This document shows positions 5,287-53,696 of a stretch of DNA of 64,000 nt, one piece after another. A program made the translations under genes and the position numbers. Position 1 is the first letter of the stretch. Each line of letters starts with the position of its first letter. The stretch comes from Gammaproteobacteria bacterium. GTDB lineage: Bacteria; Pseudomonadota; Gammaproteobacteria; Eutrophobiales; Eutrophobiaceae. The stretch covers positions 62,001-126,000 of the forward strand of contig JANQNX010000001.1 in NCBI GenBank assembly GCA_028279365.1. Reading direction: 5' to 3'. A model generated the notes under the pieces. That model saw only the letters and a list, made by a program, of their open reading frames with translations. It did not search any database and was not told the DNA's origin.

Positions 5287-6294
5287 ATGAAAATAATAGT
5301 TACAGGCGCGGCTGGCTTCATCGGCTTTCATACCTCGAAGTACTTGCTTAAAAGAGATGATGAAGTTGTCGGTATAGATAACATAAATGATTACTATGAT
5401 CCTTCTTTAAAGCATGCTCGGTTATCTAAGTTAAAACAGCATTCTAATTTTCGTTTTCACAAATTAGATATCATTGATAAAGAGTCCCTTTTCCTGGTTT
5501 TCGAAAAAGAGTTGCCGGATTATGTGATCCACCTTGCCGCGCAAGCTGGCGTTAGGTACTCGTTAGAAAACCCTTATGCTTATATTGATTCTAATATTAC
5601 AGGGTTCATGAATATCCTCGAAGCTTGCAGGCATTATCCAGTTAATCATCTGGTTTTTGCCTCTTCCAGTTCAGTATATGGTGCTAACACGCAAATGCCA
5701 TTTAGTGTTAATGATAATGTTGACCATCCGCTATCGTTGTATGCGGCCTCAAAAAAATCCAACGAGTTAATGGCACATACTTATAGTCATTTGTATGGTA
5801 TTCCGGCAAGTGGATTACGATTTTTCACAGTTTATGGGCCCTGGGGTAGGCCTGATATGGCCTTGTTCATATTTACCCGAAAAATATTGAATGGTGACAC
5901 AATAGAAGTCTTCAACAATGGAAAACATAAACGTGATTTCACTTACGTGGATGATATCGCTGAAGGTATTGTACGTGTAACTGATAATATAGCGCTTCCC
6001 AATAAATCTTGGGATAGTAATCATCCAGATCCGGCAACAAGTAAAGCACCTTACCGTTTGTATAATATAGGTAACAATTCACCTGTTGAGCTAATGTATT
6101 TTATCGAATTGGTAGAAAAGAACCTGGGTATTAAAGCAACTAAAAACTATTTGCCACTCCAGCCTGGTGATGTACCTGAAACCTATGCAGATGTTAATGC
6201 ATTAATAGAAGACGTTGATTATTCACCCTCAACCACTATTGAGTCAGGCATAGAAAATTTCATTAAATGGTACAGGGAATACTACAAGGCATGA
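5287..6294 (+). CDS. UDP-glucuronate 4-epimerase-like extended SDR (CapI/LpsL type)
   Basis: NAD-dependent epimerase expected to convert UDP-glucuronate to UDP-galacturonate in the cytosol. It is 335 residues. The N-terminus has the Rossmann motif [10 protein letters not shown] at residues 7-16, followed by the [18 protein letters not shown] segment characteristic of the CapI/LpsL group. The active site has the serine cluster ASSSSVYG and Y152xxxK156. Its stop overlaps the start of the next dehydrogenase by 4 bp (ATGA). A Ugd that could make UDP-GlcA is encoded 1.3 kb downstream, which supports the substrate. Related 4-epimerases of other UDP-sugars are possible. Confidence 0.85.
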
Positions 6295-7583
6295 GTCGGT
6301 TATTAGGCCGTCGTCTCTCTGTTATAGGCCTTGGTTACGTTGGCTTGCCCGTTGCAGTTGCATTTGGCCAATGTTGCAAAGTCATCGGTTTTGATATTAA
6401 CTCCAAAAGAATTAGTGAACTTTTAAATGGTATAGATAAAACAGGCGAAGTTGATTCATCCGACCTTGGCAGCAGTAATGTGCTATATACATCTGATTTG
6501 AATCAACTTGCTAATGCTGATTTCCATATCGTTGCTGTACCTACGCCCATTGATGAAAATAATAGACCAGATTTAACACCACTATTATCAGCATCGAGAT
6601 CAGTTGGAAAAATATTAAAAAAAGGCGATATTGTTGTTTATGAGTCGACGGTATATCCAGGGGCAACTGAAAAAGAGTGTGCCCAAATTCTTGAAGAAGT
6701 CTCCGGGTTGATAAGTGGCAAGGATTTTTATTTAGGGTATTCACCGGAAAGGATTAATCCTGGAGATAAAAAACATACTTTTAAATCAATAAAGAAAGTT
6801 GTTTCTGCACAAAACAAGGAGGTTTTGGAAATAATCGCAGAAATATATTCACAAGTAGTAGAGGCTGGCGTGTTCAAAGCTTCTTCTATCAAGGTCGCAG
6901 AAGCAGCCAAGGTTATTGAAAACACACAAAGGGATTTAAATATTGCATTAATGAATGAATTAGCAGTCTTGTTTGAAAGAATGGATATTGATACTAGTGA
7001 TGTTTTGGAGGCTGCAGGGACAAAATGGAATTTTTTACCATTTCAACCAGGTTTGGTTGGAGGACATTGTATAGGGGTGGATCCATATTATCTAACTCAT
7101 AAATCAATAGAATTGGGATATTCTCCAAAGGTTATATTATCTGGCAGAGAAGTGAATGATAACATGGGCAAATTTATTGCAGACTCTTTACTGGATGTTT
7201 TAAACAACATTGATAAAGATATTGAAAATACCGTAATTACAATATTAGGAATAACCTTCAAAGAGAATATTCCAGATATCCGCAACACCAGAGTTGTCGA
7301 TATTATCAAGCAACTAGGCAATAAACCTGTAATATTACAAGTTTATGATCCGCATGCTGATGCGGATGATGTTAAGCAAGAATATCAAATAGAACTTCAG
7401 GATTATGATTCACTTCAAAAAGCCGATGTCATTGTACTGGCAGTCTGTCATGATGAGTTTATTGATGATGGATGGAATCTTGTTGGGAGTTTAATGAACT
7501 CTAACGGCGGTATTGTATATGATATCAAGAGTGCTCTTGATAGAGATAAGACTCCAGATAATATTCGTTTACTCAGGTTATGA
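6291..7583 (+). CDS. tviB: UDP-N-acetylhexosamine 6-dehydrogenase, TviB/WbpO type
   Basis: NAD-dependent four-electron dehydrogenase that oxidises C6 of UDP-GlcNAc or UDP-GalNAc to the uronic acid. The start at 6291 overlaps the previous stop (ATGA) and gives 430 residues beginning [20 protein letters not shown], with a GxGYVGLP nucleotide-binding motif. The catalytic cysteine is C260 in [13 protein letters not shown], the Vi-antigen TviB/WbpO signature. An upstream in-frame ATG at 6267 lies inside the previous gene and adds 8 non-conserved residues. The C-terminal UDP-binding domain contains [14 protein letters not shown]. Confidence 0.9.
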
Positions 7584-9112: not shown

Positions 9113-9157
9113 GTTCATTATTTGAACATTAGCATATATAATGTTCAAATAATGAAC
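9113..9157. promoter_or_regulatory. Perfect 19-bp inverted repeat spanning the regulator start codon
   Basis: The left arm (9113-9131) and right arm (9139-9157) are perfect reverse complements of 19 bases, with a 7-base centre (9132-9138). Each arm contains a 15-bp pseudo-palindrome of form GTTCA-N5-TGAAC, at 9113-9127 and 9143-9157. Their centres are 30 bp apart, about three helical turns. The ATG at 9152 lies inside the right arm. This fits a double operator for autorepression by the dimeric winged-helix protein. As RNA it would also form a hairpin occluding the start codon. Confidence 0.75.
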
Positions 9158-9760
9158 AGCTCTGAAAAAGAAGATAACCTAACTCTAGGAATTTTATCGG
9201 CTATTGAACACAAAAATGATGTTACTCAAAGACATCTCGCAGATAATTTAGGGGTTGCACTTGGATTAGCCAATTCATACTTAAAAAGATGTGTTCGTAA
9301 AGGGTTAGTAAAAATACACCAAGCACCCGCAAATCGATATCTTTATTATCTTACTCCTAAAGGCTTTGCTGAAAAAAGTCGTCTAACTACCCAATATTTA
9401 ATTTCGTCTTTTGATTTTTATCGTCAGGCTTCTCGATCTTGCAGTGAAATTTTTAAATATTGTAAAGAAGAACAGCAAAAAAATGTGATTATTTGTGGAA
9501 TATCAGAACTGGCAGAAATAGCAACACTTAGAGCTTCTGACTTTGGAATTAATCTGATTGGATACTATGACAAAGACGCAAAGATAAATCAGTATCTTAA
9601 CAAACCTGTTTGGAATTCATTAGAAAATTTGCCTGAATTTGATAATTGCGTGATTACCGATTTATCAAAATCGTTAAATACTTATTCAGATTTGAATAAA
9701 CATATAAATAAAGAAAATATATTGTTGCCTTCAATACTAGGCATTTATCCCAAGGATTAG
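9152..9760 (+). CDS. Winged-helix regulator with C-terminal Rossmann-like domain (EPS-associated MarR-like)
   Basis: Probable local transcription factor of the island. From the ATG at 9152 it has 202 residues; a TTG at 9122 would add ten. Residues about 9-75 form a winged helix-turn-helix (ILSAIEH, VTQRHLADNLGVALGLANSYLKRCVRKGLVKI, then a wing with YLYYLTPKG), like EPS-associated MarR-type regulators. After a linker, KNVIICGISELAEIA resembles the first strand and glycine turn of a nucleotide- or sugar-binding Rossmann fold, as in NeuD/PglD N-termini. The start codon lies inside a perfect inverted repeat, suggesting autoregulation. It stands alone between ugd and the ops leader. Ligand and targets are unknown. 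Confidence 0.7.
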   Translation: MNSSEKEDNLTLGILSAIEHKNDVTQRHLADNLGVALGLANSYLKRCVRKGLVKIHQAPANRYLYYLTPKGFAEKSRLTTQYLISSFDFYRQASRSCSEIFKYCKEEQQKNVIICGISELAEIATLRASDFGINLIGYYDKDAKINQYLNKPVWNSLENLPEFDNCVITDLSKSLNTYSDLNKHINKENILLPSILGIYPKD

Positions 9761-10088: not shown

Positions 10089-11138
10089 TTGAAAATTAAT
10101 TTAGACAGTTTGAAAGTTGGGGATAATGAACCTGTTTTTATTATTGCAGAAGCAGGTGTGAATCATATGGGGTCGCAAGATATCGCTATAAAACTAATTG
10201 AAGAAGCAAAATTATCTGGTGCGGACTGTGTAAAATTTCAGACTTTTAAAGCTGACCGTATAGTTTCTAAATCTGCTCCCAAAGCAAACTATCAAAATCA
10301 TACAACTGATCCAGATGAATCACAATACGATATGCTTAAAGCATTAGAAATCGATGAGAATATATATGGTGATCTTATTAATTCATGTAATGACAACAAT
10401 ATTTTGTTTATGTCCACACCTTATAATGAGGAAGATATAGATTTTTTAGATGATCTAAACGTGCAGATCTTTAAAGCTGCATCTATACATATAGCTGAAC
10501 CAAGGTTTCTCAAGCACATGGCTAATAAAGGAAAGCCAATGATAATTTCAACCGGTATGGCAACATTAGATGAGATAGATATAGCAATAAAGACAATACT
10601 AGATGCCGGAAATGATAATTTTGTCGTTATGCAATGCACTTCTAATTATCCTTCTTTAATTGAAGAATGTAATTTGAAAGCAATGTTAGAAATGAAAAGC
10701 AAATATGAATGTCTTGTTGGTTACTCTGATCATACACAGACAAATATATCAGCAATCACTGCTGTGGCTTTAGGGGCATGTGTGATTGAAAAACATTTTA
10801 CACTTGATAAAACATTGCCTGGTCCTGATCAATCTACTTCTGAATCACCTGAAGGTTTTAAGGTTTTAGTTAATCAAATTAGAGAAGCTGAAATAGCACT
10901 AGGAGATAAGGAAAAATCTCCTACAGTTTCTGAGAAAAAAAATATTTTTGCTATGAGAAGAAGTATTGTAGCAAACAAAGATATAAAAAAAGGAGAAGAA
11001 ATAAAGAGTTCTGATTTAACCTTCAAAAGGCCTGTAATAGGTATTACCCCTGTTGAGATTGAGGATGTAGTTGGAACCTATGCGATAGATGATATATCAA
11101 AAGATGAATTTTTATCTTGGAATAAGTTAAAAAAATAG
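10089..11138 (+). CDS. NeuB-family nonulosonic acid synthase (first copy)
   Basis: Condenses phosphoenolpyruvate with a 6-carbon N-acyl amino sugar to make a 9-carbon nonulosonic acid. It is 349 residues from a TTG start (no in-frame ATG fits). The TIM barrel carries IIAEAGVNHMGS, CVKFQTFKADRIVS, ISTGMAT, QCTSNYPS and GYSDHT, and the metal-binding region EKHFTLDKTLPGPDQ. The C-terminal SAF (antifreeze-like) domain has MRRSIVANKDIKKGE. It is the first gene after the ops leader. A second family member at 51022 lies in the Pse cluster, so this copy probably uses another substrate (Neu5Ac-, legionaminate- or KDN-like). No NeuC or LegG is in this module. Confidence 0.88.
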   Translation: MKINLDSLKVGDNEPVFIIAEAGVNHMGSQDIAIKLIEEAKLSGADCVKFQTFKADRIVSKSAPKANYQNHTTDPDESQYDMLKALEIDENIYGDLINSCNDNNILFMSTPYNEEDIDFLDDLNVQIFKAASIHIAEPRFLKHMANKGKPMIISTGMATLDEIDIAIKTILDAGNDNFVVMQCTSNYPSLIEECNLKAMLEMKSKYECLVGYSDHTQTNISAITAVALGACVIEKHFTLDKTLPGPDQSTSESPEGFKVLVNQIREAEIALGDKEKSPTVSEKKNIFAMRRSIVANKDIKKGEEIKSSDLTFKRPVIGITPVEIEDVVGTYAIDDISKDEFLSWNKLKK

Positions 11139-11160
11139 CTCGTAAAATTATGGAAACAAG

Positions 11161-12870
11161 ATGATTGTAATTGGTTTAAATAATGGAGAGTTTAACTCGT
11201 CTGCAACCATCGTAAGAGACGGAGAGGTTCTAGCTGGAGCTCCAGAAGAGAGATTCATAAGGGAAAAAATGACAAAACTATTTCCACATGGCGCCATTAA
11301 GTACTGTCTCGAAACGGCCAACATATCATTAGAAGATTGTGACTACATAGCGCAAGCATGGAATCCGGGTATCGCTTGGGAAAAATATAATCCATTAATA
11401 TCAAAACACAGAAGAGAGCGAGAATTATTTTATTACACAGTACCAGATAACCTTTTTAATCAAACTGAAAATCGTAATCCTGGTGATTGGACATGTTTGT
11501 CTCAATCCGATGACAAATTACCACCGATTTATTTTATTAGACATCATCTCTGTCATGCAGCGAATGCGTATTTTCTATCAGGTTTTGAAGAATCTGCAAT
11601 ATTGACATGTGATTTTAGAGGGGAATTTGATTGTGCAACATTTGGTAAAGCTGTAGGAAACAAAATTAATGTATTACAAAGTCAACAAATACCTCATTCA
11701 TTAGGTATGTTCTATGCAACTTATACTGAACTTCTAGGGTATAAGCCGGATAATGATGAGTGGAAAGTAATGGCTCTTTCATCCTTTGATGTCAACTGTA
11801 AAGAAGAATTATCAAAAATAAGACAAACATATGCCTTAGAAGAATGTGGAAAATTAGTCTTAGACCAATCTTTTTACAAAGGAGCTATTCTAGATCAACC
11901 TAATTTATATACACAAAAACTAATAGATTTGCTCGGAGGAAGATTAGGAAAGAAAGGTGAAGAGTTCGATGAGTGGCATTGCAAAGTAGCGAAAGCTATG
12001 CAAACTGCAGCTGAGGAGATAGCTACTCATTTTTTAAATCATCTGTACGAAATTACAAAATGTGAGAATTTAGTTCTATCAGGTGGATTTTTCATGAATT
12101 CTGTTTTCAACGGTAAAATTCATGAATATACTCAATTTAAAAATATTTTCATTCCATATGCTCCTTCAGATGCCGGAAACAGTATTGGCGCAGCATTATA
12201 TTTAAACTACTGTATTCTCGGACATGATCGAAATCAAATAAATAATAGTAGTTATATTGGGCCAGAGTTTTCTAGTGACGAGATTAAATCAGCTTTAGAG
12301 AGGAGACATATAAGTTATTTAACTAGTAATACAATAGGTGAGGATGTAGCAAAATATATAAATGATGGGAAGATAGTTGCATTATTTAATGGTCGCATGG
12401 AATTTGGAGACAGAGCCCTTGGTAATCGTTCGATTATTGCAGATCCTCGGGATAGTAAAGTTAAAGATAAAATTAATAGCATTATCAAGTATAGAGAATC
12501 TTATAGACCATTTGCACCAGTAGTTCTAAAAGAGTTTGTTGAAGAAATATTTGAAGTCAGTTCGGGTTTTGAATGTAACTATATGGAGAAAGTGGTGCCT
12601 ATACGAAAGAACTGGCAAACAAAATTGGGTGCAGTTACGCACATTGATGGATCAGGTAGAGTACAGACTGTTAGTAGTTCTTCCAATAAAAATTTATACG
12701 ATGTAGTACAAAGTTTTTATGAATTGAGTGGAGTGCCAGTAATTCTAAATACTTCATTCAATATTAATGGTGAGCCAATTGTTCTATCACCTGATGATGC
12801 CTTAAACACTTTTTTCAATAGCGGTCTAGATATTCTTGTCATGAACAATTTCATTGTAGAAAAAAAGTAA
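11161..12870 (+). CDS. NodU/TobZ-family carbamoyltransferase (first copy)
   Basis: Transfers a carbamoyl group from carbamoyl phosphate (through carbamoyl-AMP) to a sugar hydroxyl. It is 569 residues with the two-domain layout. The N-terminal Kae1-like domain starts MIVIGLNNGEFNSSATIV, with AGAPEERF and a histidine cluster H128, H129, H132 in RHHLCHAANAYF. The C-terminal YrdC-like part has GDRALGNRSIIADPRD, KYRESYRPFAPVVL and VILNTSFNINGEPIV. It follows the NeuB-like gene by 22 bp, so it may carbamoylate that NulO. A second copy is at 42576. Confidence 0.88.
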   Translation: MIVIGLNNGEFNSSATIVRDGEVLAGAPEERFIREKMTKLFPHGAIKYCLETANISLEDCDYIAQAWNPGIAWEKYNPLISKHRRERELFYYTVPDNLFNQTENRNPGDWTCLSQSDDKLPPIYFIRHHLCHAANAYFLSGFEESAILTCDFRGEFDCATFGKAVGNKINVLQSQQIPHSLGMFYATYTELLGYKPDNDEWKVMALSSFDVNCKEELSKIRQTYALEECGKLVLDQSFYKGAILDQPNLYTQKLIDLLGGRLGKKGEEFDEWHCKVAKAMQTAAEEIATHFLNHLYEITKCENLVLSGGFFMNSVFNGKIHEYTQFKNIFIPYAPSDAGNSIGAALYLNYCILGHDRNQINNSSYIGPEFSSDEIKSALERRHISYLTSNTIGEDVAKYINDGKIVALFNGRMEFGDRALGNRSIIADPRDSKVKDKINSIIKYRESYRPFAPVVLKEFVEEIFEVSSGFECNYMEKVVPIRKNWQTKLGAVTHIDGSGRVQTVSSSSNKNLYDVVQSFYELSGVPVILNTSFNINGEPIVLSPDDALNTFFNSGLDILVMNNFIVEKK

Positions 12871-12913
12871 AGCTTATTCTGATGAATATATTATTAGAAT
12901 TTCTCAAAAAAAT

Positions 12914-13786
12914 ATGAGTATCTGGATATCATCAGGGGCGTTTCTTACCAGAAATATTAGCGAATTGTTGGAAGTCGCGAGAGTTGCTGGAATAAATAAT
13001 ATCGAGTTAAGTTCTGGCATGGCACATTCGGAAGACTTAGTTGATGTCGTTGTTGAGGAACATCGTAATGGAGGTACTTTCCTTGTACATAATTATTTCC
13101 CTCCACCTAAAGCCCCCTTTGTTTTGAATATAGCTTCTTTAAAAGATGAAGAGTTAGAAAGATCTCTAGAACATTGTAAAAGAGCGATCATATTAGCTAG
13201 TCATGTTGATGCTCCGTTTTATAGTGTTCACGCTGGTTTTGCAGCAAATTTAAGACATCAAGATTTAGGAAAACCTGAACAACAGGCTAATTCGCTTAAT
13301 GAAAGTGATATCGATAGGGAAAAAGCATTCTCGGTCATGTTGGAATCAGTAAGTCAATTGGCAGATTTTTGTAAGAAATTTAACATGGATTTGTTAATTG
13401 AAAATAATGTGATATCTCCACTGTATCTCGAAAAAATGCCTATTAATCCATTGTTATTAACTACTCCAAATGAGGTAAATGAATTCTTTGATGAATTAGA
13501 ATCTGAGAATGTCGGATTATTATTAGATGTTGCTCATGCAAAGGTCTCAGCAACGGCATTGGAATTTAATCCTTTTGATTTTTTTGAAAAATCTGGAAAT
13601 CATATTAAAGCATTCCATTTGAGTGATAACAATGGAAGAGAAGATCAAAATTTACCTGTTAATAAAGACTCTTGGTTTATGCCATTATTAAAAGGCTATA
13701 GTGATTTAGAAATTGTATTAGAAGCTTATAGATTAAGCATTCAAGACATACAAAATCAACTGGAATTAGTATCAAAATATCTTTGA
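12914..13786 (+). CDS. Xylose isomerase-like TIM-barrel protein (sugar phosphate isomerase/epimerase family)
   Basis: AP-endonuclease-2 / xylose-isomerase-like barrel of 290 residues, a family that epimerises or isomerises sugars and sugar phosphates with a divalent metal. Barrel-strand segments with potential ligands are FLVHNYF, FYSVHAGF, DLLIENNV, GLLLDVAHAKV and AFHLSDNNG. These are spaced as in the family, and the Glu, Asp and His ligands appear retained. It sits between the carbamoyltransferase and the CBS-aminotransferase (3 bp). Inference: it prepares or modifies the precursor of the first NulO. The substrate cannot be told from sequence. Confidence 0.7.
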   Translation: MSIWISSGAFLTRNISELLEVARVAGINNIELSSGMAHSEDLVDVVVEEHRNGGTFLVHNYFPPPKAPFVLNIASLKDEELERSLEHCKRAIILASHVDAPFYSVHAGFAANLRHQDLGKPEQQANSLNESDIDREKAFSVMLESVSQLADFCKKFNMDLLIENNVISPLYLEKMPINPLLLTTPNEVNEFFDELESENVGLLLDVAHAKVSATALEFNPFDFFEKSGNHIKAFHLSDNNGREDQNLPVNKDSWFMPLLKGYSDLEIVLEAYRLSIQDIQNQLELVSKYL

Positions 13787-13789
13787 TAT

Positions 13790-15229
13790 ATGAGTGAAAC
13801 AATCGAAAAATATTTGGTTTCAACAGACTCAACATTCGAACATGTTATTCAACGATTGGACGAAAATTCTGGTGGAGTCGTATTCATCGTTGATGATAAT
13901 GAAATAATGAAAGGAATATTAACTGACGGAGATGTGCGAAGATTAATATTGAAAGGTATATCTACAGATAAAGTAGTTAATGATCTAATGAATGATAATT
14001 TTGTATCAGGTTCAATCAATTCATCCAGGTCAGAAAATATAAAATTATTAAATAATAAAGTACATCATTTACCCATTCTCGATGAATCTGGTATTCCTGT
14101 GGATATGATTTCGTGGTCCGATTTATGGAGTTTACCCATTGCACAACCATTTCTTGGAGGAAACGAATTAAAGTATATTACCGATTGTATATCGACAATG
14201 TGGATTTCTTCCCAAGGTCATTATATTGAAAAATTTGAAGAATCTATGGTGTCATTCCTGGGTGGCGGTAAAGGACTCTGCACATCATCTGGTACGACAG
14301 CTCTAACCTTATCTCTAGCCGCATTAGGAATCACAAGTGGAGATGAAGTCATTGTTCCAAATATCACTTTTGGGGCAACTGCGAATGCTGTTATTCAACT
14401 CGGTGCAATTCCTGTTTTTGTTGATATAGACTCTAGAAGTAAAACAATGTGCCCAGTAGCATTTCAGGATGCAATAACAAATAAAACAAAAGCTGTGATT
14501 CCAGTACATCTCTATGGTCATCCATGTGACATGGATCCAATTCTAGAAATTGCTAAAAAGTTTAATATTTATGTAGTAGAAGATTGTGCCGAGTCGCTTG
14601 GAGCTGAATATAAAGATAAAAAAGTAGGACTGCTTGGAGATGTTTCTTGCTTTAGTTTTTTTGCAAATAAAGTTATTACTACAGGTGAAGGTGGAATGGT
14701 AGTGACAAAAGATGATTCATTGCTTGGCAAGATGAAATTATTAAGAGATCACGGCATGTCACCCAAAAGAAGATATTGGCATGAGTTGCCTGGATATAAC
14801 TTTCGTATGACTAATTTACAAGCGGCAATTGGCTTGGCACAAATGGAACAAATTGATAAATTCTTAATTGACAGAAGAGAAATTGTTGATATTTATAATA
14901 AAAAATTAGCTTCAATTAAAACAATCGTTCGACCTGTGGAAGAAAGCTGGGCTAAGAATATATATTGGCTTTATTCAATTGAACTCCAAGATAATGATTC
15001 ACTTATAACAAAGAATATGTTGATGACTCGATTAAAAAGTGTCGGGATAGAATCGAGACCAGTATTTCCGCCTCTAAATAATCAACCTGCATATAGATCG
15101 GATAATATTAATTCCTATCCAGTATCAGAAAAATTTGCAAAAAATGGTTTAAGCTTACCTACGGCCAATGGAATGAAAATTGGTGATGCTGAGCGAGTTT
15201 GTAACCTTATAAAAACAATTTTAAAGTAA
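13790..15229 (+). CDS. CBS-domain pair fused to DegT/DnrJ/EryC1 aminotransferase
   Basis: A 479-residue fusion. Residues about 5-115 are two CBS motifs (GVVFIVDDNEIMKGILTDGDVRR, in which TDGDVRR is typical, then HHLPILDESGIPVDMISWSDL). Residues about 118-479 are a PLP-dependent sugar aminotransferase. Landmarks are TSSGTTALTLSLAAL, the VEDCAES aspartate and the PLP lysine K294 in SFFANKVITTGEGG. It probably aminates a keto-sugar, with the CBS pair sensing a nucleotide. Related pathways use a CBS-nucleotidyltransferase fusion (PtmE), so this is a different joining of the same sensor. It is encoded 3 bp from both neighbours. Confidence 0.85.
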   Translation: MSETIEKYLVSTDSTFEHVIQRLDENSGGVVFIVDDNEIMKGILTDGDVRRLILKGISTDKVVNDLMNDNFVSGSINSSRSENIKLLNNKVHHLPILDESGIPVDMISWSDLWSLPIAQPFLGGNELKYITDCISTMWISSQGHYIEKFEESMVSFLGGGKGLCTSSGTTALTLSLAALGITSGDEVIVPNITFGATANAVIQLGAIPVFVDIDSRSKTMCPVAFQDAITNKTKAVIPVHLYGHPCDMDPILEIAKKFNIYVVEDCAESLGAEYKDKKVGLLGDVSCFSFFANKVITTGEGGMVVTKDDSLLGKMKLLRDHGMSPKRRYWHELPGYNFRMTNLQAAIGLAQMEQIDKFLIDRREIVDIYNKKLASIKTIVRPVEESWAKNIYWLYSIELQDNDSLITKNMLMTRLKSVGIESRPVFPPLNNQPAYRSDNINSYPVSEKFAKNGLSLPTANGMKIGDAERVCNLIKTILK

Positions 15230-15232
15230 AAT

Positions 15233-15955
15233 TTGGAAACTAATATTATTGACATTCCTCTTGCAATCATACCCGCAAGAGGTGGTTCTGTCGGAATACG
15301 GAAAAAAAACCTACACCAAATTAATGGTATCCCCCTAATTCAATATACGTTGAACATCTTAAGAAAAATGGAAGATAAGCTGATTCCATTTATATCAACA
15401 GACGATGTAGAAATTCATGAGTATTGTGAAAAAAATGGGTTTAATAACAAATATATTAGACCTACAAAATTAGCAGGTAACAATTCAAAAATTGTAGATG
15501 CTGTATTAGATGCTTGTAATTGGTGGGAGGTAGAAAATAAGAAAAAATTAAAAACCGTTATGTTGTTGCAACCTACTTCCCCATTTCGACGTGTACAACA
15601 TGTTATTAATGCTATAGAAAAATATCAGAAGACAGATAAATCATCTTTGGTGAGTGTTTGTAAGATGATAATACATCCAAATCTTTGTATTGATGCGTCA
15701 AATAATAAATGGAACTTTTTAGACCATACAGACGGAACGGTTATTAATCGTCAAAACCTGAGTTCAGCATATTATCAACTAAATGGTGCAATATACATTT
15801 CAACTATAGAACAGCTTAGGAATAAAAAGAGATTTGTAATTCCTGGTGAGACTGAATTGTTTAAGATGGACCAATATTCAAGCATCGACATTGATGACAT
15901 TGATGATATTGAATATGCAGAATATTTAATCTCGAGTGGTAAAGTAACTATATAG
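15233..15955 (+). CDS. CMP-nonulosonic acid synthetase (NeuA-like acylneuraminate cytidylyltransferase)
   Basis: Activates a nonulosonic acid as its CMP-sugar. It is 240 residues from a TTG start 3 bp after the previous stop. The CTP-binding loop is IIPARGGSVGIRKKNL near residues 12-27, followed by PFISTDD and MLLQPTSPFR. The C-terminus has YYQLNGAIYIS and an acidic DIDDIDDIEYAEYL end encoded by a short 9-bp repeat (15887-15913). It is distinct from the PseF-type gene at 47875 and a third family member at 60398. Its position suggests it acts on the product of the NeuB-like gene at 10089. Confidence 0.85.
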   Translation: METNIIDIPLAIIPARGGSVGIRKKNLHQINGIPLIQYTLNILRKMEDKLIPFISTDDVEIHEYCEKNGFNNKYIRPTKLAGNNSKIVDAVLDACNWWEVENKKKLKTVMLLQPTSPFRRVQHVINAIEKYQKTDKSSLVSVCKMIIHPNLCIDASNNKWNFLDHTDGTVINRQNLSSAYYQLNGAIYISTIEQLRNKKRFVIPGETELFKMDQYSSIDIDDIDDIEYAEYLISSGKVTI

Positions 15956-15957
15956 TT

Positions 15958-16842
15958 ATGCAATATTCCAGTACTGTTATTGATGATTTTATAAAAATTG
16001 GCTTTTTGAATTTTCGGGATCTTGAACACTATCATCCATGCGTCAGAGATGATAAATATATGGAAGTTCTAAAATGCAGAAAAACGGGGGTGATAGCGTT
16101 ATCAACTACAAAACATATAACGCATGAATACTATGAGTCAAGAAATGTAAATCAAATAACAAAAGATATAGATGTTGAACAGATTAAAACAATAGAGAAT
16201 CAAGATAATTTAAGAAGGACTAAATATTTCAATCAAGATATTGTTAATAAAGTTTGGCTAGATATTGGTACCGGTACTGGACTCATTCTTGAAATGAATA
16301 AAGATGTTGCGAATAAGTGTATAGGGATAGAACCACATAAGTTAAGAAGAGAAATTGCAAACAAGAATGGTTTAGATGTTAAAGAAAGTCTATCTGAAAT
16401 AGAAGATAATAGTATTGAGGTTGTCACATTATTTCACGTTTTTGAACATATACTGATACCTGTTGAATTTCTGTCAGAATTAGCAAATAAGATTATAAAA
16501 GGTGGGAAAATAATTCTGGAAGTCCCTCATGCTAATGATTTTTTAATGAATCGATTAGATTGTATTCCAGCTAAAGATTTTCTCTTATGGAGTGAACATC
16601 TAATTCTACATACAGAATCCAGCTTGAGATATATTTTAGAGCATATAGGTTTTAAAGATATTAAAATCAATGGATATCAACGATATGGATTGTCTAATCA
16701 TCTTTATTGGTTGCGTCATGGAAAACCCGGAGGCCAACAAATATGGAGTGATCTTAATCAAGAAGAATTAGATGAGAAATACAGTGAAATGTTATGTCGT
16801 ATTCAGCAAACTGATACATTAATTGCAACCGCATATAGATAA
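15958..16842 (+). CDS. Class I SAM-dependent methyltransferase
   Basis: A 294-residue protein with a short N-terminal extension and a methyltransferase fold from about residue 95. Motif I is VWLDIGTGTGLILEM, the acidic residue after the next strand is in CIGIEPHKLRR, and VVTLFHVFEHI and GGKIILEVPH follow. The layout (HVFEH, EVPH) resembles sugar and lipid modification methyltransferases of O-antigen loci. The gene lies 2 bp after the CMP-sugar synthetase and directly abuts the next gene. A glycan substrate is an inference from position. Confidence 0.75.
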   Translation: MQYSSTVIDDFIKIGFLNFRDLEHYHPCVRDDKYMEVLKCRKTGVIALSTTKHITHEYYESRNVNQITKDIDVEQIKTIENQDNLRRTKYFNQDIVNKVWLDIGTGTGLILEMNKDVANKCIGIEPHKLRREIANKNGLDVKESLSEIEDNSIEVVTLFHVFEHILIPVEFLSELANKIIKGGKIILEVPHANDFLMNRLDCIPAKDFLLWSEHLILHTESSLRYILEHIGFKDIKINGYQRYGLSNHLYWLRHGKPGGQQIWSDLNQEELDEKYSEMLCRIQQTDTLIATAYR

Positions 16843-20166
<3,324 letters not shown>

Positions 20167-29602: not shown

Positions 29603-30139
29603 TTGAAAAAAAAACAGGCTATATTCTTAGATAGAGACGGAGTAATTAACAAAACTATGGTGAGGTATGGGAAGCCATACGCACCAACAAAAATTAAAGA
29701 TTTCGAAATATTACCTGATGTACGCTTATTGTTAGATCAATTAAAGCAATCAGGTTATTTTCTGGTGGTTGTAACAAATCAGCCAGATGTCGGTAATAAG
29801 ATAACAAAGCAAGAAACCGTTGAGAGCATGCATGCGATTTTATTAAATGAATTACCATTAGACGAGATCAAGGTTTGTTATTGTAAACAAACTGATCAAT
29901 GCGAATGTCGTAAACCGAAACCAGGTATGCTTATTGAAGCTGCGTTAGAATTTAATTTAGATTTAATTAATAGTTATATGATTGGTGATCGTAGAAGTGA
30001 CATTGAAGCAGGGGCTGCTGCAGGTTGTAGGACGGTTTTCATAGATCGTGGCTATAGATATTCCGAGCATCCAAAAAAAGTTGATAAAAAAACAATGAAT
30101 TTACAAGAAGCAGTAGAATATATTTTAGAAAAGAATTGA
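29603..30139 (+). CDS. GmhB-like D,D-heptose 1,7-bisphosphate phosphatase (HAD-IIIA)
   Basis: Removes the 7-phosphate of heptose 1,7-bisphosphate in NDP-heptose synthesis. It is 178 residues from a TTG start. The HAD nucleophile motif is IFLDRDGVIN with D10 and D12, then VVTNQPDVG, the lysine in CRKPKPGM, and MIGDRRSDIEAG. A GmhB-type zinc loop is formed by C92, C94, C100 and C102. Partners are the SIS isomerase at 22017 and the fused nucleotidyltransferase-kinase at 32922. The GmhB subfamily is clear; sugar stereochemistry is not. Confidence 0.85.
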   Translation: MKKKQAIFLDRDGVINKTMVRYGKPYAPTKIKDFEILPDVRLLLDQLKQSGYFLVVVTNQPDVGNKITKQETVESMHAILLNELPLDEIKVCYCKQTDQCECRKPKPGMLIEAALEFNLDLINSYMIGDRRSDIEAGAAAGCRTVFIDRGYRYSEHPKKVDKKTMNLQEAVEYILEKN

Positions 30140-30160
30140 GTTTTTAATAGAGGGTTACAT

Positions 30161-30889
30161 ATGAATAATCTGAGTAAACTTGATGTAAAAATATTTGCTG
30201 ACGGGGCGGATATTAATGCGATTAAAAAACTTTCTGAAAATCCATTAGTAAAAGGCTTTACAACCAACCCCACCTTGATGAGAAATGCGGGTGTTGATAA
30301 TTATGAGGCATTTGCAAAAGAAGTCTTGGAATTCATTATTGATAAACCGGTTAGTTTTGAGGTTTTTTCTGATGATATTGATAGCATGGAGCGCCAAGCA
30401 TTAAAAATTGCGTCATGGGGTGAAAATGTAAATGTAAAAATTCCCATTACAAACACCAAAGGTGAATCAACGGTGGAACTGGTCGGGAGTCTGTCAAATG
30501 CTGGAGTTGCGGTTAACGTCACTGCAATTATGACATTAGATCAGGTCCATGCTATAGCAAATGTTTTGAATAAAGGTGTTTTCGCTATTGTATCTGTTTT
30601 TGCCGGTCGCATAGCTGATACTGGTATTGACCCGATTCCATTAATGACAAAGGCTGCACAAATTTTATTAGATAAACCCAAAGCAGATTTGCTTTGGGCA
30701 AGTCCTCGTGAATTGCTTAATATTTTCCATGCTGATGAATGTGGATGTGGAATTATCACGGTAACCCCAGATCTGTTATCAAAGTTAAGTGGTGTGGGTA
30801 AAAACCTTGAGCAATTTAGTTTAGAAACAGTACAAATGTTTTATAACGATGCAGCAGCAGCAGGTTATTCAATTAATACAGATTCTTAA
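30161..30889 (+). CDS. Transaldolase / fructose-6-phosphate aldolase family protein
   Basis: Class I aldolase of 242 residues, close in size to the short transaldolases. The motifs are FADGADINAI, GFTTNPTLMRNAG and the Schiff-base lysine K93 in VNVKIPITNTKGE, followed by VNVTAIMTLDQV and VSVFAGRIADTG. It could make or break sedoheptulose 7-phosphate, the entry point of heptose synthesis, together with the split transketolase at 38275/39096. It lies 21 bp after the GmhB-like gene, behind an AGAGGG Shine-Dalgarno. A pathway role beyond the pentose phosphate cycle is inferred from context. Confidence 0.88.
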   Translation: MNNLSKLDVKIFADGADINAIKKLSENPLVKGFTTNPTLMRNAGVDNYEAFAKEVLEFIIDKPVSFEVFSDDIDSMERQALKIASWGENVNVKIPITNTKGESTVELVGSLSNAGVAVNVTAIMTLDQVHAIANVLNKGVFAIVSVFAGRIADTGIDPIPLMTKAAQILLDKPKADLLWASPRELLNIFHADECGCGIITVTPDLLSKLSGVGKNLEQFSLETVQMFYNDAAAAGYSINTDS

Positions 30890-30907
30890 TTACTAAATAT
30901 TTAAATT

Positions 30908-31921
30908 ATGACAATGCAATATAATAACTTATTAATTACCGGTGGTGCCGGTTATTGCGGTAGTTTACTTGTTCCGCAGTTATTGGACCTTGGCTACAAG
31001 ATTAGTGTCTATGACATGATGTATTATGGTTCAGACTTTCTCCCTGTGGATAATAAAAATCTAACTTTAATAAAAGGAGATATAAGAGATATAGACAAAT
31101 TAAGCGAATCATTGCAAGGAATTGATGCCGTATTACATCTCGCATGTATTTCAAATGATGCAAGTTTTGTTTTAGATGAAAACTTATCAACAACTGTTAA
31201 TTACGATGCGTTTGAACCAATGGTTCTTGCATCCAAAAAGGCAGGTGTCAAACGTTTTGTATATGCATCTTCCAGCTCAGTTTATGGAGTAAGTGATGAA
31301 CCTGATGTCACAGAGGAGCATCCACTTGTACCACTAACTTTATACAATAAATATAAAGGGATGTGTGAGCCTTTATTATTGAAACACACGGATGAAAATT
31401 TTACCGGAGTAATTTATCGACCAGCAACTGTCTGTGGTTATGCTCCAAGACAGAGATTGGATTTGTCTGTAAATATCTTGACGAATCATGCCATAAATAA
31501 GGGTGCGATTACTGTGTTTGGTGGAGAACAATTACGGCCGAACCTACATGTTCAGGATTATGCAGATTTATGCAAGGTTTTACTTGAAGCTCCTGATGAA
31601 AAAGTTGCAGATCAAATATTTAATTGTGGTTATCAAAATATGAGTATTATGCAAATAGCAAAGACTGTTAAGTCCGTCGTTGAGCAAGAGTTTTCTGAAC
31701 TAAACGAGATTTCGATTGAAACAACGCCTTCTGACGATAATCGTTCATATCATATTAACTCGGATAAAATCACAAATGTTTTAGGCTTTAAGCCTCAATT
31801 TTCTGTTGAAGATGCTATCAGAGATCTTTGTAAAGCGTTTAGGGATAACAAATTGCCTGATAGTTTTAATAATGATTGGTATTATAATGTACGTACGATG
31901 CAAAAAATTGGTGCCAGTTAA
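30908..31921 (+). CDS. NAD-dependent epimerase/dehydratase (extended SDR)
   Basis: A 337-residue sugar-nucleotide modifying SDR. The Rossmann motif is TGGAGYCGS near residues 11-19, the GDIRDIDKL acidic turn follows, and the active site has ASSSSVYG and Y146xxxK150. YRPATVCGYAPRQR and HVQDYADL line the substrate pocket. Its stop and the next start share one base. Its position in the heptose-like module suggests action on an NDP-heptose, as an epimerase or dehydratase. Confidence 0.8.
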   Translation: MTMQYNNLLITGGAGYCGSLLVPQLLDLGYKISVYDMMYYGSDFLPVDNKNLTLIKGDIRDIDKLSESLQGIDAVLHLACISNDASFVLDENLSTTVNYDAFEPMVLASKKAGVKRFVYASSSSVYGVSDEPDVTEEHPLVPLTLYNKYKGMCEPLLLKHTDENFTGVIYRPATVCGYAPRQRLDLSVNILTNHAINKGAITVFGGEQLRPNLHVQDYADLCKVLLEAPDEKVADQIFNCGYQNMSIMQIAKTVKSVVEQEFSELNEISIETTPSDDNRSYHINSDKITNVLGFKPQFSVEDAIRDLCKAFRDNKLPDSFNNDWYYNVRTMQKIGAS

Positions 31922-32925
31922 TGAGTAAACCAATTGCTCTGGTGACTGGAGGTGCAGGTTTTATTGGTAGCCACACAGTTGATCTACTATTAAATGAAGG
32001 ATTTAAAGTTCGTGTCATAGATAATCTTACTGGCGGCCATGAAAAGAATATCGAACATCATAAAACCAATTCCGATTTTTCATTTGAAATAAAAGACATT
32101 TGTGATTTACAAAACTCTGAGACTTTGTTCAAAGATGTAGAGTATGTTTTCCACTATGCTGGTATAGGCGACATTGTCCCATCAATAGAAAATCCAGTTG
32201 ATTATATGTTAACTAATGTACAAGGAACTGTTCGTATACTAGAAGCAGCTCGATATCAAGGAGTAAAAAAACTGGTATATGCAGCTTCATCTTCATGTTA
32301 TGGCTTAGCTGATACTCCAACTCGTGAAGATCATCTTATAAATCCATTATATCCCTATGCATTAAGTAAGTACCTAGGGGAGCAGTCAGCATTACATTGG
32401 AATAATGTTTATAGTTTGCCAGTTAATTCTGTACGGATATTTAATGCTTATGGCACACGAGTTCGTACTACAGGTGCCTATGGTGCTGTATTTGGTGTTT
32501 TTTTAAAGCAAAAACTTTCTGGAAAACCCTATACTATTGTTGGTGATGGTACTCAATCCCGGGATTTTCTGTATGTTACGGATGTGGCAAAAGCTTTTTA
32601 TTTAGCTGCAATATCTGATAAATCTGGCGAGATTTTTAACTTAGGTGCTGGGAACCCACAATCTGTTAATCGATTAGTAGAATTATTAGGAGGCGACGTT
32701 GTTTACATTCCAAATCGTCCTGGTGAGCCGGATTGTACTTGGGCAGATATTTCTAAAATAAAAACTGAATTAAAATGGCAGCCTGAAATATCTTTCGAAA
32801 GTGGTGTAAATATGATGTTGCAAGAAATTGATAATTGGCATGATGCTCCATTGTGGGAACCAGAAAATATTGCCCGTGCGACCGGAGCTTGGTTTAAATA
32901 TATGTCGAGTGGTAAAGATATATGA
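31921..32925 (+). CDS. NAD-dependent sugar-nucleotide epimerase (extended SDR, WbpP/GalE-like)
   Basis: A 334-residue extended SDR. TGGAGFIGSH at residues 9-18 binds NAD, DNLTGGH follows strand 2, and the catalytic set is AASSSCYG with Y146xxxK150. VRIFNAYGTR, GDGTQSRDFLYVTDVA and NRPGEPDCTWADISK are typical of GalE/WbpP-type 4-epimerases. It overlaps the previous gene by one base and the next by four. The SDRs at 30908 and 36711 in the same module suggest a multistep conversion of one NDP-sugar. Confidence 0.83.
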   Translation: MSKPIALVTGGAGFIGSHTVDLLLNEGFKVRVIDNLTGGHEKNIEHHKTNSDFSFEIKDICDLQNSETLFKDVEYVFHYAGIGDIVPSIENPVDYMLTNVQGTVRILEAARYQGVKKLVYAASSSCYGLADTPTREDHLINPLYPYALSKYLGEQSALHWNNVYSLPVNSVRIFNAYGTRVRTTGAYGAVFGVFLKQKLSGKPYTIVGDGTQSRDFLYVTDVAKAFYLAAISDKSGEIFNLGAGNPQSVNRLVELLGGDVVYIPNRPGEPDCTWADISKIKTELKWQPEISFESGVNMMLQEIDNWHDAPLWEPENIARATGAWFKYMSSGKDI

Positions 32926-34475
32926 CAAATGATTTTTTTGAAAAATATGAACATAAAATAAAGACTAGAGAAGAAATTCTAAGTGAGATTGGTGATTTTC
33001 CTAGAAACAATAAAACTATAATGTGTCACGGAGTATTCGATGTCGTGCATCCCGGCCATGTTAGGCATTTAGCTTATGCTAAGAGTAAGGCTGACATTCT
33101 CATAGCCAGTATCACCTGTGATAAGCATATTAAAAAAGGTACATATCGACCTCATGTTCCTCAAAATCTGAGAGCTCATAATCTTGCCGCCTTTGAAATG
33201 GTTGATTATGTATTGATTGATATAAACGAAAAGCCTCTTGAAAATTTGAAATTTCTAAAACCAGATTTATTTGCAAAAGGATTTGAATATACATCGAAAG
33301 GATTACCCCCTGATACACAAGAAGAAGTGGATCTCGTTGAAGGTTATGGAGGCGATGTTATTTTTACACCGGGCGATATCGTTTATTCATCATCAAAACT
33401 AATCGACATGGCTCTACCAAACCTACAAATAGAAAAATTACTTGCATCAATGCGAGAAGAATCATTTACTTTTGAAGATCTTCATGAAGTGTTAAATAAT
33501 TTAAAAGGTAAACGTGTTCATGTGATTGGAGATACTATCGTTGATAGTTACACAAGAACTACATTAATTGGAGGTCAAACCAAAACTCCTACATTTAGCG
33601 TGCTTTATCAGGGAGTTGATAATTATATTGGCGGTGCTGGTATTGTTGCTCAGCATATGAGAGCTGCAGGTGCTGATGTGGTTTTTACCACAGTTCTTGG
33701 AGATGATGAATTAAAAGACTTTGTAGTTAAAGGATTAGAAAATTCAGATATTGAATGTAACGTAATAATCGACAAAACAAGACCGACAACTAACAAAAAT
33801 GCGATCATTGCAGGTGGCTATAGATTATTAAAAGTTGATACACTCGATAATCGTTCAATTTCGGAGCATATTGTTGAAAAAATATCTAGCTCAATATCAG
33901 AAATAGAATGTGATGCAATAATTTTTAGTGATTTTCGACATGGTATTTTTAATAAACTCACAATACCAGAATTTACTAACGCAATACCAGAAAATATATA
34001 TCGGGTTGCAGATAGCCAGGTCGCAAGCCGGTGGGGCAATATAACTGACTTTGAATCTTTTGATCTGATAACTCCTAATGAACGTGAAGCAAGATTTGCA
34101 CTTGCAGATCAAGAGTCAACAGTGGGACACCTTGCTGGAAAACTAGTAGAAGAGACTCAATGTAATAATTTAATCTTGAAACTGGGTGAGAGAGGCGTAT
34201 TTGTTTTGGCAAAAAATAAACAAGATTCAGATGATCAGATTTATTTCTCTGTTGATAGCTTTGCTAATAATGTCATTGATGCAGTTGGAGCCGGCGATGC
34301 CTTATTAGCTTACTCGACGTTATCAATGTTGCACTCTGGTTCTCCATTTATTTCTACAATTTTAGGTTCGATGGCTGCAGCGATTGAATGTGAATATGAT
34401 GGAAATATTCCAGTTAAACCGGGTGATGTGACTCGAAAAATCGAAGCCATACAAAAAATTGCCCAATACGAATAG
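32922..34475 (+). CDS. Bifunctional nucleotidyltransferase-PfkB kinase (HldE activities in reverse order)
   Basis: A 517-residue fusion that should phosphorylate a heptose 7-phosphate at C1 and later activate the heptose 1-phosphate as an NDP-sugar. The nucleotidyltransferase domain is N-terminal (about 30-165) with GVFDVVHPGH, i.e. H43 and H46, and DIVYSSSKLI. The ribokinase-like domain is C-terminal (about 195-515) with GDTIVDSY, YIGGAGIVA, ITPNERE, KLGERGVFV and GAGD at 456-459, D459 being the catalytic base. E. coli HldE has the kinase first. It overlaps the epimerase before it by 4 bp and shares a base with the gene after it. Confidence 0.85.
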   Translation: MTNDFFEKYEHKIKTREEILSEIGDFPRNNKTIMCHGVFDVVHPGHVRHLAYAKSKADILIASITCDKHIKKGTYRPHVPQNLRAHNLAAFEMVDYVLIDINEKPLENLKFLKPDLFAKGFEYTSKGLPPDTQEEVDLVEGYGGDVIFTPGDIVYSSSKLIDMALPNLQIEKLLASMREESFTFEDLHEVLNNLKGKRVHVIGDTIVDSYTRTTLIGGQTKTPTFSVLYQGVDNYIGGAGIVAQHMRAAGADVVFTTVLGDDELKDFVVKGLENSDIECNVIIDKTRPTTNKNAIIAGGYRLLKVDTLDNRSISEHIVEKISSSISEIECDAIIFSDFRHGIFNKLTIPEFTNAIPENIYRVADSQVASRWGNITDFESFDLITPNEREARFALADQESTVGHLAGKLVEETQCNNLILKLGERGVFVLAKNKQDSDDQIYFSVDSFANNVIDAVGAGDALLAYSTLSMLHSGSPFISTILGSMAAAIECEYDGNIPVKPGDVTRKIEAIQKIAQYE

Positions 34476-35443
34476 TGACTAAAGACTTAAGACTTATCGT
34501 AATAGGCTTGGGTGTACAAGGATACAAGCGTAAAGAAGTGGCAGGCAATAATGTCATCGCTACAATAGATCCATTAAATTCTGAAGCAACTTATAAAACT
34601 ATTTATGATGTGCCTTTAGTAGATTTTGATGCAGCATTTGTTTGCACACCTGATGAAGTTAAAATTGAATTATTACAATATTTACTTGAAAACAAGAAAC
34701 ATGTACTTGTTGAAAAGCCATTATTAGCAAATGATTCCAAGAATTTACAGGCAATAAAAGAAGTATCAGAGAAAAACAACGTTGTATGTTATACAGCATA
34801 TAATCATCGATTCGAGCCACACTTCGTTCGTATGAAAAAAACTATCGATAGTAATAGACTTGGTGAAATATATTCAATTCGCATGTTTTATGGCAATGGC
34901 ACAGCTCGATTGGTCCATGATAGTCAATGGCGTGATCAGGCTGCAGGCGTTCTGCCGGACTTGGGTAGTCATTTACTTGACACATTGGATTATTGGATAA
35001 AAGACTGTAGTAAACTGGATTTCAATATTTCCAGTGCACTATGTCATGAAAATCGTGCATTTGATCATGTGATTTTGAAAAGTGATAGCCAATTTTCGGT
35101 TCAGCTTGAAATGATGCTTTTGAGTTGGCGAAATCATTTTACCTGTGATATCTATGCAGAAAAAGGAAGTGCACACATTGAATCTCTTTGTAAATGGGGG
35201 CCTTGTAAGTTTACTTACCGTACTCGAGTATTACCGAGTGGGCGCCCACCCGAAGAATCATTTACTCTGGTACAGAACGATCCGACTTGGAAACTAGAAC
35301 ACGAGCATTTTATTAATTTATGTCTAAATAATAAAACTGGAAATATAGGACAGGATATTTGGCTAAATGAAAAACTTAATGAACTAGCCAAACAAGTAGG
35401 TTTGAAATCAGTATTACCTGATAATGTCATGGAAAAGGATTAA
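34475..35443 (+). CDS. Gfo/Idh/MocA family oxidoreductase
   Basis: An NAD(P)-dependent sugar oxidoreductase of 322 residues from a GTG overlapping the previous stop. The dinucleotide-binding loop is VIGLGVQG at 9-16, and the family EKP motif is E80-K81-P82 in HVLVEKPLLA. The second domain contains DLGSHLLDTLDYW, with the substrate-site histidine expected in this family. It sits between the nucleotidyltransferase-kinase and a dehydrogenase-like protein. Oxidation of a sugar nucleotide or sugar phosphate in the heptose-like pathway is likely. Confidence 0.83.
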   Translation: MTKDLRLIVIGLGVQGYKRKEVAGNNVIATIDPLNSEATYKTIYDVPLVDFDAAFVCTPDEVKIELLQYLLENKKHVLVEKPLLANDSKNLQAIKEVSEKNNVVCYTAYNHRFEPHFVRMKKTIDSNRLGEIYSIRMFYGNGTARLVHDSQWRDQAAGVLPDLGSHLLDTLDYWIKDCSKLDFNISSALCHENRAFDHVILKSDSQFSVQLEMMLLSWRNHFTCDIYAEKGSAHIESLCKWGPCKFTYRTRVLPSGRPPEESFTLVQNDPTWKLEHEHFINLCLNNKTGNIGQDIWLNEKLNELAKQVGLKSVLPDNVMEKD

Positions 35444-36705: not shown

Positions 36706-36710
36706 CTAAA

Positions 36711-37604
36711 ATGTTAAAGCATAATGACATTGATGAAAAGAAACCTTCCAGGGTTGTAATACTTGGTGCTAAGGGCTTTGTAGGTAATGCAGTCAAAGAG
36801 AAATTAATCAAAATTGATGTGTCCACATTAGCTCTTGGTAGAGAAGAAGTTGATTTGCTTAATGAAGATTCCATTGATTATTTACATGCGACACTAAACA
36901 CAGCAGACAGTTTGGTATTTGTTTCTGCAGAGGCACCGGTAAAAAATAATAATATGCTCATGCGAAACATTAAAATGGCATCCAATATTTGTGAGGCAAT
37001 CAAAGATCTAAAAATAAGACATGTATTGTATGTTAGTTCAGATGCTGTTTATAAAGATAGTATTGAACCTTTATCTGAAAATTCATGTGCTCAACCTAGT
37101 TCATTGCATGGTGTCATGCATTTGGCAAGAGAAAAAATGATTGCAAATACGTATTCAGGACCATTAGCTATTATAAGGCCAACTCTAATCTATGGAGTGA
37201 ATGATCCTCATAACGGTTATGGGCCAAACCGTTTTAGAAGATTGGCAGAAAAAGATGAAGATGTAGTCTTATTTGGCAAGGGAGAAGAACAACGCGATCA
37301 TGTTCTGATAGATGATGTGGCAGAATTAATTGTGAGAATGCTATTACACAAAAGCAGTGGTGTTTTAAATGCAGCAACAGGAACTGTGAAGTCATTTCAT
37401 GAAATTGCTGAATGTGTTATCTCACAATTTAATGAATCTAAAAAAATTAAATACACAGAAAGACAAGGAGAAATGCCCCATAATGGATACCGTCCATTTG
37501 ATCCGTCCTCTACATACAAAGCTTTTCCTGATTTTAAATATACTGATATCGGTGAAGGAATAGCATTGACCCATACTATAGCCACAGGAGGAAAAATTGT
37601 CTGA
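36711..37604 (+). CDS. Extended SDR-like protein with altered active site
   Basis: A 297-residue epimerase/dehydratase-like protein. The nucleotide-binding motif VVILGAKGFVGNAV at 15-28 is intact, and HVLYVSSDAVY gives the usual serine strand. The place of the catalytic YxxxK, however, reads HGVMH (H133, H137), so both Tyr and Lys are missing. The C-terminal part (GKGEEQRDHVLIDDVAELIV) is normal. It may use another acid/base set or be a non-catalytic partner. It lies 5 bp after the cysteine-less dehydrogenase, also an altered enzyme, and overlaps the next gene by 8 bp. Confidence 0.75.
   Translation: MLKHNDIDEKKPSRVVILGAKGFVGNAVKEKLIKIDVSTLALGREEVDLLNEDSIDYLHATLNTADSLVFVSAEAPVKNNNMLMRNIKMASNICEAIKDLKIRHVLYVSSDAVYKDSIEPLSENSCAQPSSLHGVMHLAREKMIANTYSGPLAIIRPTLIYGVNDPHNGYGPNRFRRLAEKDEDVVLFGKGEEQRDHVLIDDVAELIVRMLLHKSSGVLNAATGTVKSFHEIAECVISQFNESKKIKYTERQGEMPHNGYRPFDPSSTYKAFPDFKYTDIGEGIALTHTIATGGKIV
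37586..37591 (+). promoter_or_regulatory. Strong Shine-Dalgarno AGGAGG for the TTG start at 37597
   Basis: AGGAGG lies 5 bp before TTG at 37597, inside the end of the upstream SDR gene. It decides the TTG start of the methyltransferase, whose reading frame overlaps the SDR stop. Confidence 0.75.
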
Positions 37605-38247: not shown

Positions 38248-38274
38248 ACAACTTTTTAATTGAGGTTTTTAATA

Positions 38275-42569: not shown

Positions 42570-42575
42570 GTTATT

Positions 42576-52901: not shown

Positions 52902-52903
52902 AT

Positions 52904-53695: not shown

Positions 53696-53696
53696 A

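Follow-up and report, generated by a model that had tools for sequence, protein, structure and literature searches.

A predicted nonulosonic acid gene module in a gammaproteobacterial contig, with a proposed route from GDP-mannose via GDP-perosamine

The six-gene module, its aminotransferase and its synthase

We analyzed a 64,000-nucleotide stretch of a gammaproteobacterial contig (JANQNX010000001.1, positions 62,001 to 126,000; assembly GCA_028279365.1, 3.14 Mb, scored 100% complete), termed the window below. At 10089-16842, six intact open reading frames lie on the same strand with intergenic gaps of 2-43 bases, encoding a NeuB-family nonulosonic acid (NulO) synthase, a carbamoyltransferase, a TIM barrel protein, an aminotransferase fused to CBS domains (CBS-aminotransferase), a cytidine monophosphate (CMP)-nonulosonate synthetase and a methyltransferase (Table 1). 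The six genes named in a first-pass annotation of this DNA are present at these coordinates, and the domain families that we detected agree with its labels. That annotation had called the set a second NulO module, as borne out by a separate pseudaminic acid (Pse) set in the same window, and had proposed an uncommon six-carbon precursor lacking a recognizable pathway. The uncommon precursor is well supported. The similarities of the aminotransferase and of the acyltransferases in related loci, linkage to guanosine diphosphate (GDP)-mannose 4,6-dehydratase (GMD) and the residues of NeuB indicate a route from GDP-mannose to GDP-perosamine, so that the claim of an unrecognizable pathway was wrong. 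Overall, the module probably makes a CMP-activated NulO from GDP-mannose via GDP-perosamine.

Table 1. Positions of the module genes and of associated features in the window
Feature	Position	Strand	Remarks
Winged-helix regulator, upstream of module	9122..9760	+	MarR_EPS-like, below the cut-off of that model
NeuB-family nonulosonate synthase with SAF domain (module synthase)	10089..11138	+	Tyr112/Ile133, N. meningitidis numbering
NodU/TobZ/GdmN-type carbamoyltransferase	11161..12870	+	Carbam_trans_N/C; occupies the GNAT/PerB-like N-acyltransferase slot of relatives
AP_endonuc_2 TIM barrel	12914..13786	+	Putative release of the sugar from GDP; complementary to NeuC/PseG
Two N-terminal CBS domains fused to DegT aminotransferase	13790..15229	+	Perosamine-synthase family
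CMP-nonulosonate synthetase	15233..15955	+	CTP_transf_3
Class I S-adenosylmethionine methyltransferase	15958..16842	+	Methyltransf_23; homologues adjoin the module in L018 and L136
Adjacent protein, possible glycosyltransferase	16843..18012	+	No match in family scans
PseB	17981	same as module	Above curated cut-off
PseC	18997	same as module	Above curated cut-off
PseF	47875		
PseG-PseH fusion	48561-50075		504 residues, PseH-like GNAT domain
Second NeuB, Pse-like	51022		Phe133 as in Pse synthases

The window CBS-aminotransferase is a member, at the family level only, of the perosamine synthase (PerA) family. Among solved proteins it is closest to perosamine synthase (360 bits, against 284 bits for the next non-PerA protein), the region of the catalytic lysine is retained, and its score on the LegC-family model (351 bits) falls below the cut-off of 420. 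All 26 aminotransferases from this and related modules scored best on PerA, ahead of LegC, 7b0m and PseC. A quick maximum-likelihood tree united 25 of these 26 copies in one clade (99%) nested among GMD-adjacent homologues, and LegC branched separately. About 20 of the nearest CBS-free homologues have GMD as the gene immediately upstream. The CBS pair itself resembles that of PtmE (53 bits).

The module synthase contains the NeuB and SAF domains as well as the active-site residues E25, Q55, K129, Y186, H215, E234, H236, D247 and R314 (N. meningitidis numbering). Its score for the NeuB equivalog was 398 bits, narrowly short of the cut-off of 399.65, and that for the PseI model TIGR03586 was 291 bits (cut-off 340). 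In the phylogeny that the first-pass annotation had called for, this NeuB branches beside LegI and NeuC-linked synthases and apart from PseI, and its residues near C2 of the substrate differ. Position 133 has been named as the C2 determinant, being Gly in synthases of the neuraminic (Neu) and legionaminic (Leg) acid type and Phe in those of the Pse type (PMC7371886). We located this position by alignment and found Gly in 6/6 NeuC-linked or Neu synthases and Phe or Tyr in the PseG-linked ones, whereas 21 of the 24 TIM-linked NeuBs have Ile, Leu, Met, Ala, Ser or Thr, with Ile in the window. Similarly, 22/24 TIM-linked NeuBs have Tyr at position 112, where every NeuC- or PseG-linked synthase checked has Phe.

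Distribution of the module and of partner genes

Scanning one genome per species for relatives of the CBS-aminotransferase revealed about 24 further loci (given L numbers here) in which NeuB, the TIM barrel and the CBS-aminotransferase are clustered, usually together with a CMP-synthetase. These loci are distributed across Pseudomonadota, Thermodesulfobacteriota, Verrucomicrobiota, Omnitrophota, Nitrospirota, Rokuibacteriota, Chlorobiota, Bdellovibrionota, Pelagibacteraceae and other groups; such recurrence over many phyla argues that the gene grouping is not due to chance. The module is widespread but patchy. It is rare in the lineage of the window, given that the TIM gene was detected in just 2/369 genomes of the same class (one besides the source) and the TIM protein in 0/398 genomes in another class/phylum-level search. 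When the combination of NeuB, carbamoyltransferase and TIM was sought elsewhere, the best plasmid match had no NulO neighbourhood.

The gene order of a compact gammaproteobacterial locus (L133) is GMD, NeuB, PerB-like acyltransferase, TIM, PerA-like aminotransferase and CMP-synthetase with overlapping gene ends, followed by ManC, and no N-acetylglucosamine (GlcNAc) dehydratase lies within the run. This would place the whole predicted pathway in seven neighbouring genes, making the locus suited to in vitro work. GMD is also linked to the module without Fcl in L018, L028, L031 and L134, where L031 resembles L133 in gene order except for a transposase gene (6199-7290) between GMD and NeuB. The regulator upstream of the window module has a homologue in L028, just before NeuB, and in L134, where it precedes GMD. 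Most relatives encode an acyltransferase of the GNAT or PglD_N/hexapeptide type between NeuB and TIM. The best solved relative of the hexapeptide enzymes in L022 and L133 (2/2 tested) is perosamine N-acetyltransferase, ahead of VioB and PglD.

We further searched whole genomes for enzymes of the Neu and Leg pathways. In the source genome the NeuC family had no match at E<=1e-3, and nothing passed the LegB cut-off (best match to the LegB model 149 bits, cut-off 475). Hence the absence of NeuC, LegG and LegB, which the first-pass annotation had noted at the module, holds genome-wide, and the missing Leg/Neu enzymes were not found elsewhere in the genome. Several LegB-like matches inside the window (31921, 59514 and others) were all far below the cut-off and were rejected. 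Source-genome GMD (587 bits, cut-off 415) is encoded on another contig beside Fcl (GDP-fucose synthase) and ManC. Among the 24 module genomes, GMD was above the cut-off in 21, compared with 167 of 369 genomes in the class background (Fisher p=6e-5), and in one further genome it was split across two contigs. LegB exceeded its cut-off in 3/24 and NeuC in 6/24, PseG was present in 5/24 in addition to the source genome, and 15/24 had neither NeuC nor PseG above the cut-off.

Predicted route and competing explanations

The activities and the product proposed here are predicted from family membership, gene order, conservation and the presence or absence of partner genes. GMD would form GDP-4-keto-6-deoxymannose, which the CBS-aminotransferase would convert to GDP-perosamine, whose 4-amino group would then, in most relatives, be N-acylated by an enzyme of the PerB-like or GNAT type. 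The TIM barrel would cleave this GDP-sugar to free 4-(acyl)amino-4,6-dideoxy-D-mannose; no epimerization at C2, and therefore no 2-epimerase, is needed, since perosamine is already manno-configured. NeuB would condense the sugar with phosphoenolpyruvate (PEP) to give 7-(acyl)amino-3,7,9-trideoxy-D-glycero-D-galacto-nonulosonate with a hydroxyl group at C5 (N-acetyl form C11H19NO8, calculated mass about 293.11 Da), the CMP-synthetase would activate it, and the carbamoyltransferase and methyltransferase would decorate it. A manno precursor without the usual C2 acetamido group fits the PerA-like aminotransferase, the PerB-like acyltransferases, the GMD linkage, the counts of GMD, LegB and NeuC, and the NeuB residues.

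NeuB requires a free sugar, which known pathways supply by NeuC/LegG, PseG or a phosphatase. In none of the loci examined does the TIM gene lie beside the same NeuB as NeuC or PseG, and it is the sole conserved gene left over for the release step. A bona fide Leg cluster in Rhizobium sp. WL3 (L141) reads LegB-LegC-NeuC-LegI-LegH-PtmE-Gfo/Idh-CMP-synthetase-SDR-PtmG and onward. L022 shares with it the synthase and acyltransferase genes, Gfo/Idh, a CMP-synthetase that is 63% identical, SDR and the genes for amidation, but has TIM and the CBS-aminotransferase where L141 has LegB, LegC, NeuC and PtmE. Thus, the TIM barrel most likely releases the sugar from GDP, taking the role of NeuC or PseG. 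The plain isomerase named in the first-pass annotation is probably not its function here, as it occupies the place held elsewhere by those enzymes.

Carbam_trans_N and C domains span the whole window carbamoyltransferase. Known carbamoyltransferases of the NodU/TobZ family form O-carbamates, which makes an O-carbamate the default guess for the window product. Methylation may be a modification that recurs, since L018 and L136 also carry related methyltransferases next to the module. Judged from these genes, the window product is perhaps O-carbamoylated and methylated, in line with the carbamoylated, methylated NulO suggested in the first-pass annotation, and its 7-amino group may be left free, be acylated by the PseH domain encoded in the window, or be the reason for the carbamoyltransferase. 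Taken together, we slightly favour the view that the module represents a further NulO class, with a C5 hydroxyl and a C7 (acyl)amino group, derived from GDP-mannose via GDP-perosamine, that the TIM metalloenzyme is a new kind of GDP-sugar hydrolase, that the module spread over many phyla by gene transfer, and that the window version is O-carbamoylated and methylated.

Several observations weigh against this proposal. The window has no PerB-like or GNAT gene at the module and carries the carbamoyltransferase in its place, which makes the N-acylation step uncertain there, and the PerB-likeness of the acyltransferases was compared without a true LegH as control. The aminotransferase tree included two LegC references and homologues picked by query similarity, and the L031 aminotransferase falls outside the main CBS clade. 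Gly133 is retained in three module NeuBs (L017, L019 and L031). GMD is widespread and in many cases belongs to fucose synthesis, the source-genome copy is unlinked to the module and sits beside Fcl, and the GMD background covers one class only whereas the module genomes cover many phyla. Moreover, NeuC-type NulO clusters in L131 and L132 are directly followed by a GMD-Fcl pair, so GMD proximity alone is not specific. The predicted TIM structure also resembles sugar isomerases and epimerases rather than hydrolases.

This structural likeness underlies the first alternative, in which the precursor route is the same but the TIM protein is an isomerase or epimerase whose substrate is the free sugar or an intermediate further along, and release of the sugar falls to another enzyme. 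The model (predicted local distance difference test score, pLDDT, 95.9) best matched 3wqo, which is D-tagatose 3-epimerase-like (Z 26.6), xylose isomerase and tagatose/psicose 3-epimerases (Z 23-27). H59, H106, E163, D205, H208, H235, D244 and E270 are invariant in 23/23 TIM proteins, position 246 being mostly Asn. E163, D205, H235 and E270 presumably represent the usual metal quartet of the isomerase/epimerase family. The remaining four, H59, H106, H208 and D244, may be counterparts of the extra metal ligands of endonuclease IV, so that the eight would together correspond to most of its nine ligands (H69, H109, E145, D179, H182, H216, D229, H231 and E261). Endonuclease IV also gave a weak match in the TIM profile search; its absence from the top 50 structural matches is uninformative either way. 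The likeness in residues and profile to endonuclease IV is suggestive, not proof. Considering also that no other conserved gene remains for the release step and that most module genomes have neither NeuC nor PseG above the cut-off, we regard the isomerase explanation as unlikely, though deserving of attention.

In a second alternative, the module would start from a GlcNAc nucleotide and yield an ordinary sugar of the Leg or Neu type, with the aminotransferase using nucleoside diphosphate (NDP)-4-keto-6-deoxy-GlcNAc and the TIM barrel replacing NeuC as a hydrolysing 2-epimerase. This would agree with the grouping of NeuB beside LegI and NeuC-linked synthases, with its near-threshold NeuB score and the LegC-model score of the aminotransferase, and with the downstream genes that L022, L030 and L033 have in common with true Leg clusters. 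However, LegB is scarce in module genomes and absent above the cut-off from the source genome, every module aminotransferase is nearer to PerA than to LegC, the C2-contact residue is unlike that of Leg/Neu synthases in most module NeuBs, and L133 combines GMD and ManC with no GlcNAc dehydratase in its run. We therefore consider a Leg- or Neu-type product doubtful. That the module is instead a branch of Pse synthesis fed by PseB and PseC, which are directly downstream on the same strand, is highly improbable, because the window has a complete Pse set with its own Phe133 synthase and PseB and PseC are not part of the conserved module in other genomes.

PseB and PseC, which were overlooked in the first-pass annotation, start about 1.1 kb downstream of the module in the same gene run. 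As the Pse set is complete and includes a NeuB with the characteristic Phe of Pse synthases, the first module needs a separate explanation. An inositol-phosphatase-family protein and a PIG-L-type deacetylase (52898-54356) adjoin the Pse synthase and could possibly provide extra trimming steps. Other sugar genes in the window include a second carbamoyltransferase beside a further DegT aminotransferase, itself very distant from the remaining ones (41340-44189). Genes at 29603-40013 encode a GmhB-like HAD phosphatase, a transaldolase, an HldE-like protein with the nucleotidyltransferase before the kinase, a transketolase split over two genes (38260, 39096), a methyltransferase and NAD epimerases. 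Together they look like a route to a heptose or to another sugar that is branched or has a higher carbon number.

Genes beside the module also differ among the related loci. L136 is on the mobilizable plasmid p2 of Azospirillum sp. TSA2s, which also carries two sets of HisF, HisH and N-acetyl sugar amidotransferase genes that suggest an acetamidino-modified product. A second sub-cluster adjoins the module in L014 (13112-15948) and L021 (9501-12246), with similar ones in L012, L013, L016 and L069; it encodes a DapA-family protein and a CMP-synthetase-like protein, together with a NeuB homologue that is very distant (25-29% identity) and has changes at active-site residues.

Relation to known nonulosonic acid and perosamine pathways

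The literature searched, which covered few subscription papers, held nothing relevant on a NulO module with a carbamoyltransferase/isomerase, a CBS-aminotransferase or perosamine, and the titles and abstracts searched contained no description of the predicted product class. Published NulO pathways branch from uridine diphosphate (UDP)- or GDP-GlcNAc, Kdn excepted (PMC8053191, PMC7439481), and in a review figure every NulO other than Kdn branches from UDP-GlcNAc (PMC8053191). If correct, a route from GDP-mannose would extend the acidic nine-carbon surface sugars by a class, account for NeuB genes found in the absence of NeuC, LegB and PseG, and introduce a new type of NDP-sugar hydrolase. In addition, mass spectrometry surveys of sialic-acid-like sugars could misassign the predicted C11H19NO8 product, an isomer of deoxy-N-acetylneuraminic acid.

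In Kdn synthesis, from mannose 6-phosphate or mannose plus PEP, the C2 hydroxyl of the hexose becomes the C5 hydroxyl, as predicted here, but Kdn contains no nitrogen and no 9-deoxy group and no aminotransferase is used. The nearest solved or curated relatives of the route enzymes are GMD, PerA and PerB of the GDP-N-acetylperosamine pathway (Caulobacter 3bn1/3dr7, 4ea7). The known perosamine pathway ends in GDP-perosamine for O-antigen, whereas in the predicted route NeuB would extend the sugar after its release, and the aminotransferase carries CBS domains.

CMP-legionaminic acid is made by LegB/LegC/LegH/LegG/LegI/LegF from GDP-GlcNAc in C. jejuni, and by a Sps variant from UDP-GlcNAc in B. 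subtilis (PMC7439481). The module resembles this pathway in its succession of dehydratase, aminotransferase, acyltransferase, release step, NeuB-type synthase and CMP-synthetase, in a NeuB close to LegI, and in the PtmE-like CBS pair, here fused to the aminotransferase. It differs in lacking LegB, LegC and LegG, in having a perosamine-type aminotransferase and, in relatives, acyltransferase, in the replacement of NeuC/PseG by the TIM barrel, and in a predicted precursor without nitrogen at C2. The Pse pathway (PseBCHGIF) similarly frees its sugar by a separate hydrolase and not by a hydrolysing epimerase, but PseG is a GT-B-like hydrolase, the sugar has the altro configuration and the synthases have Phe133. 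Having looked for defining features of Leg and Pse synthesis and not found them in the module, we suggest that the module works like both pathways while belonging to neither.

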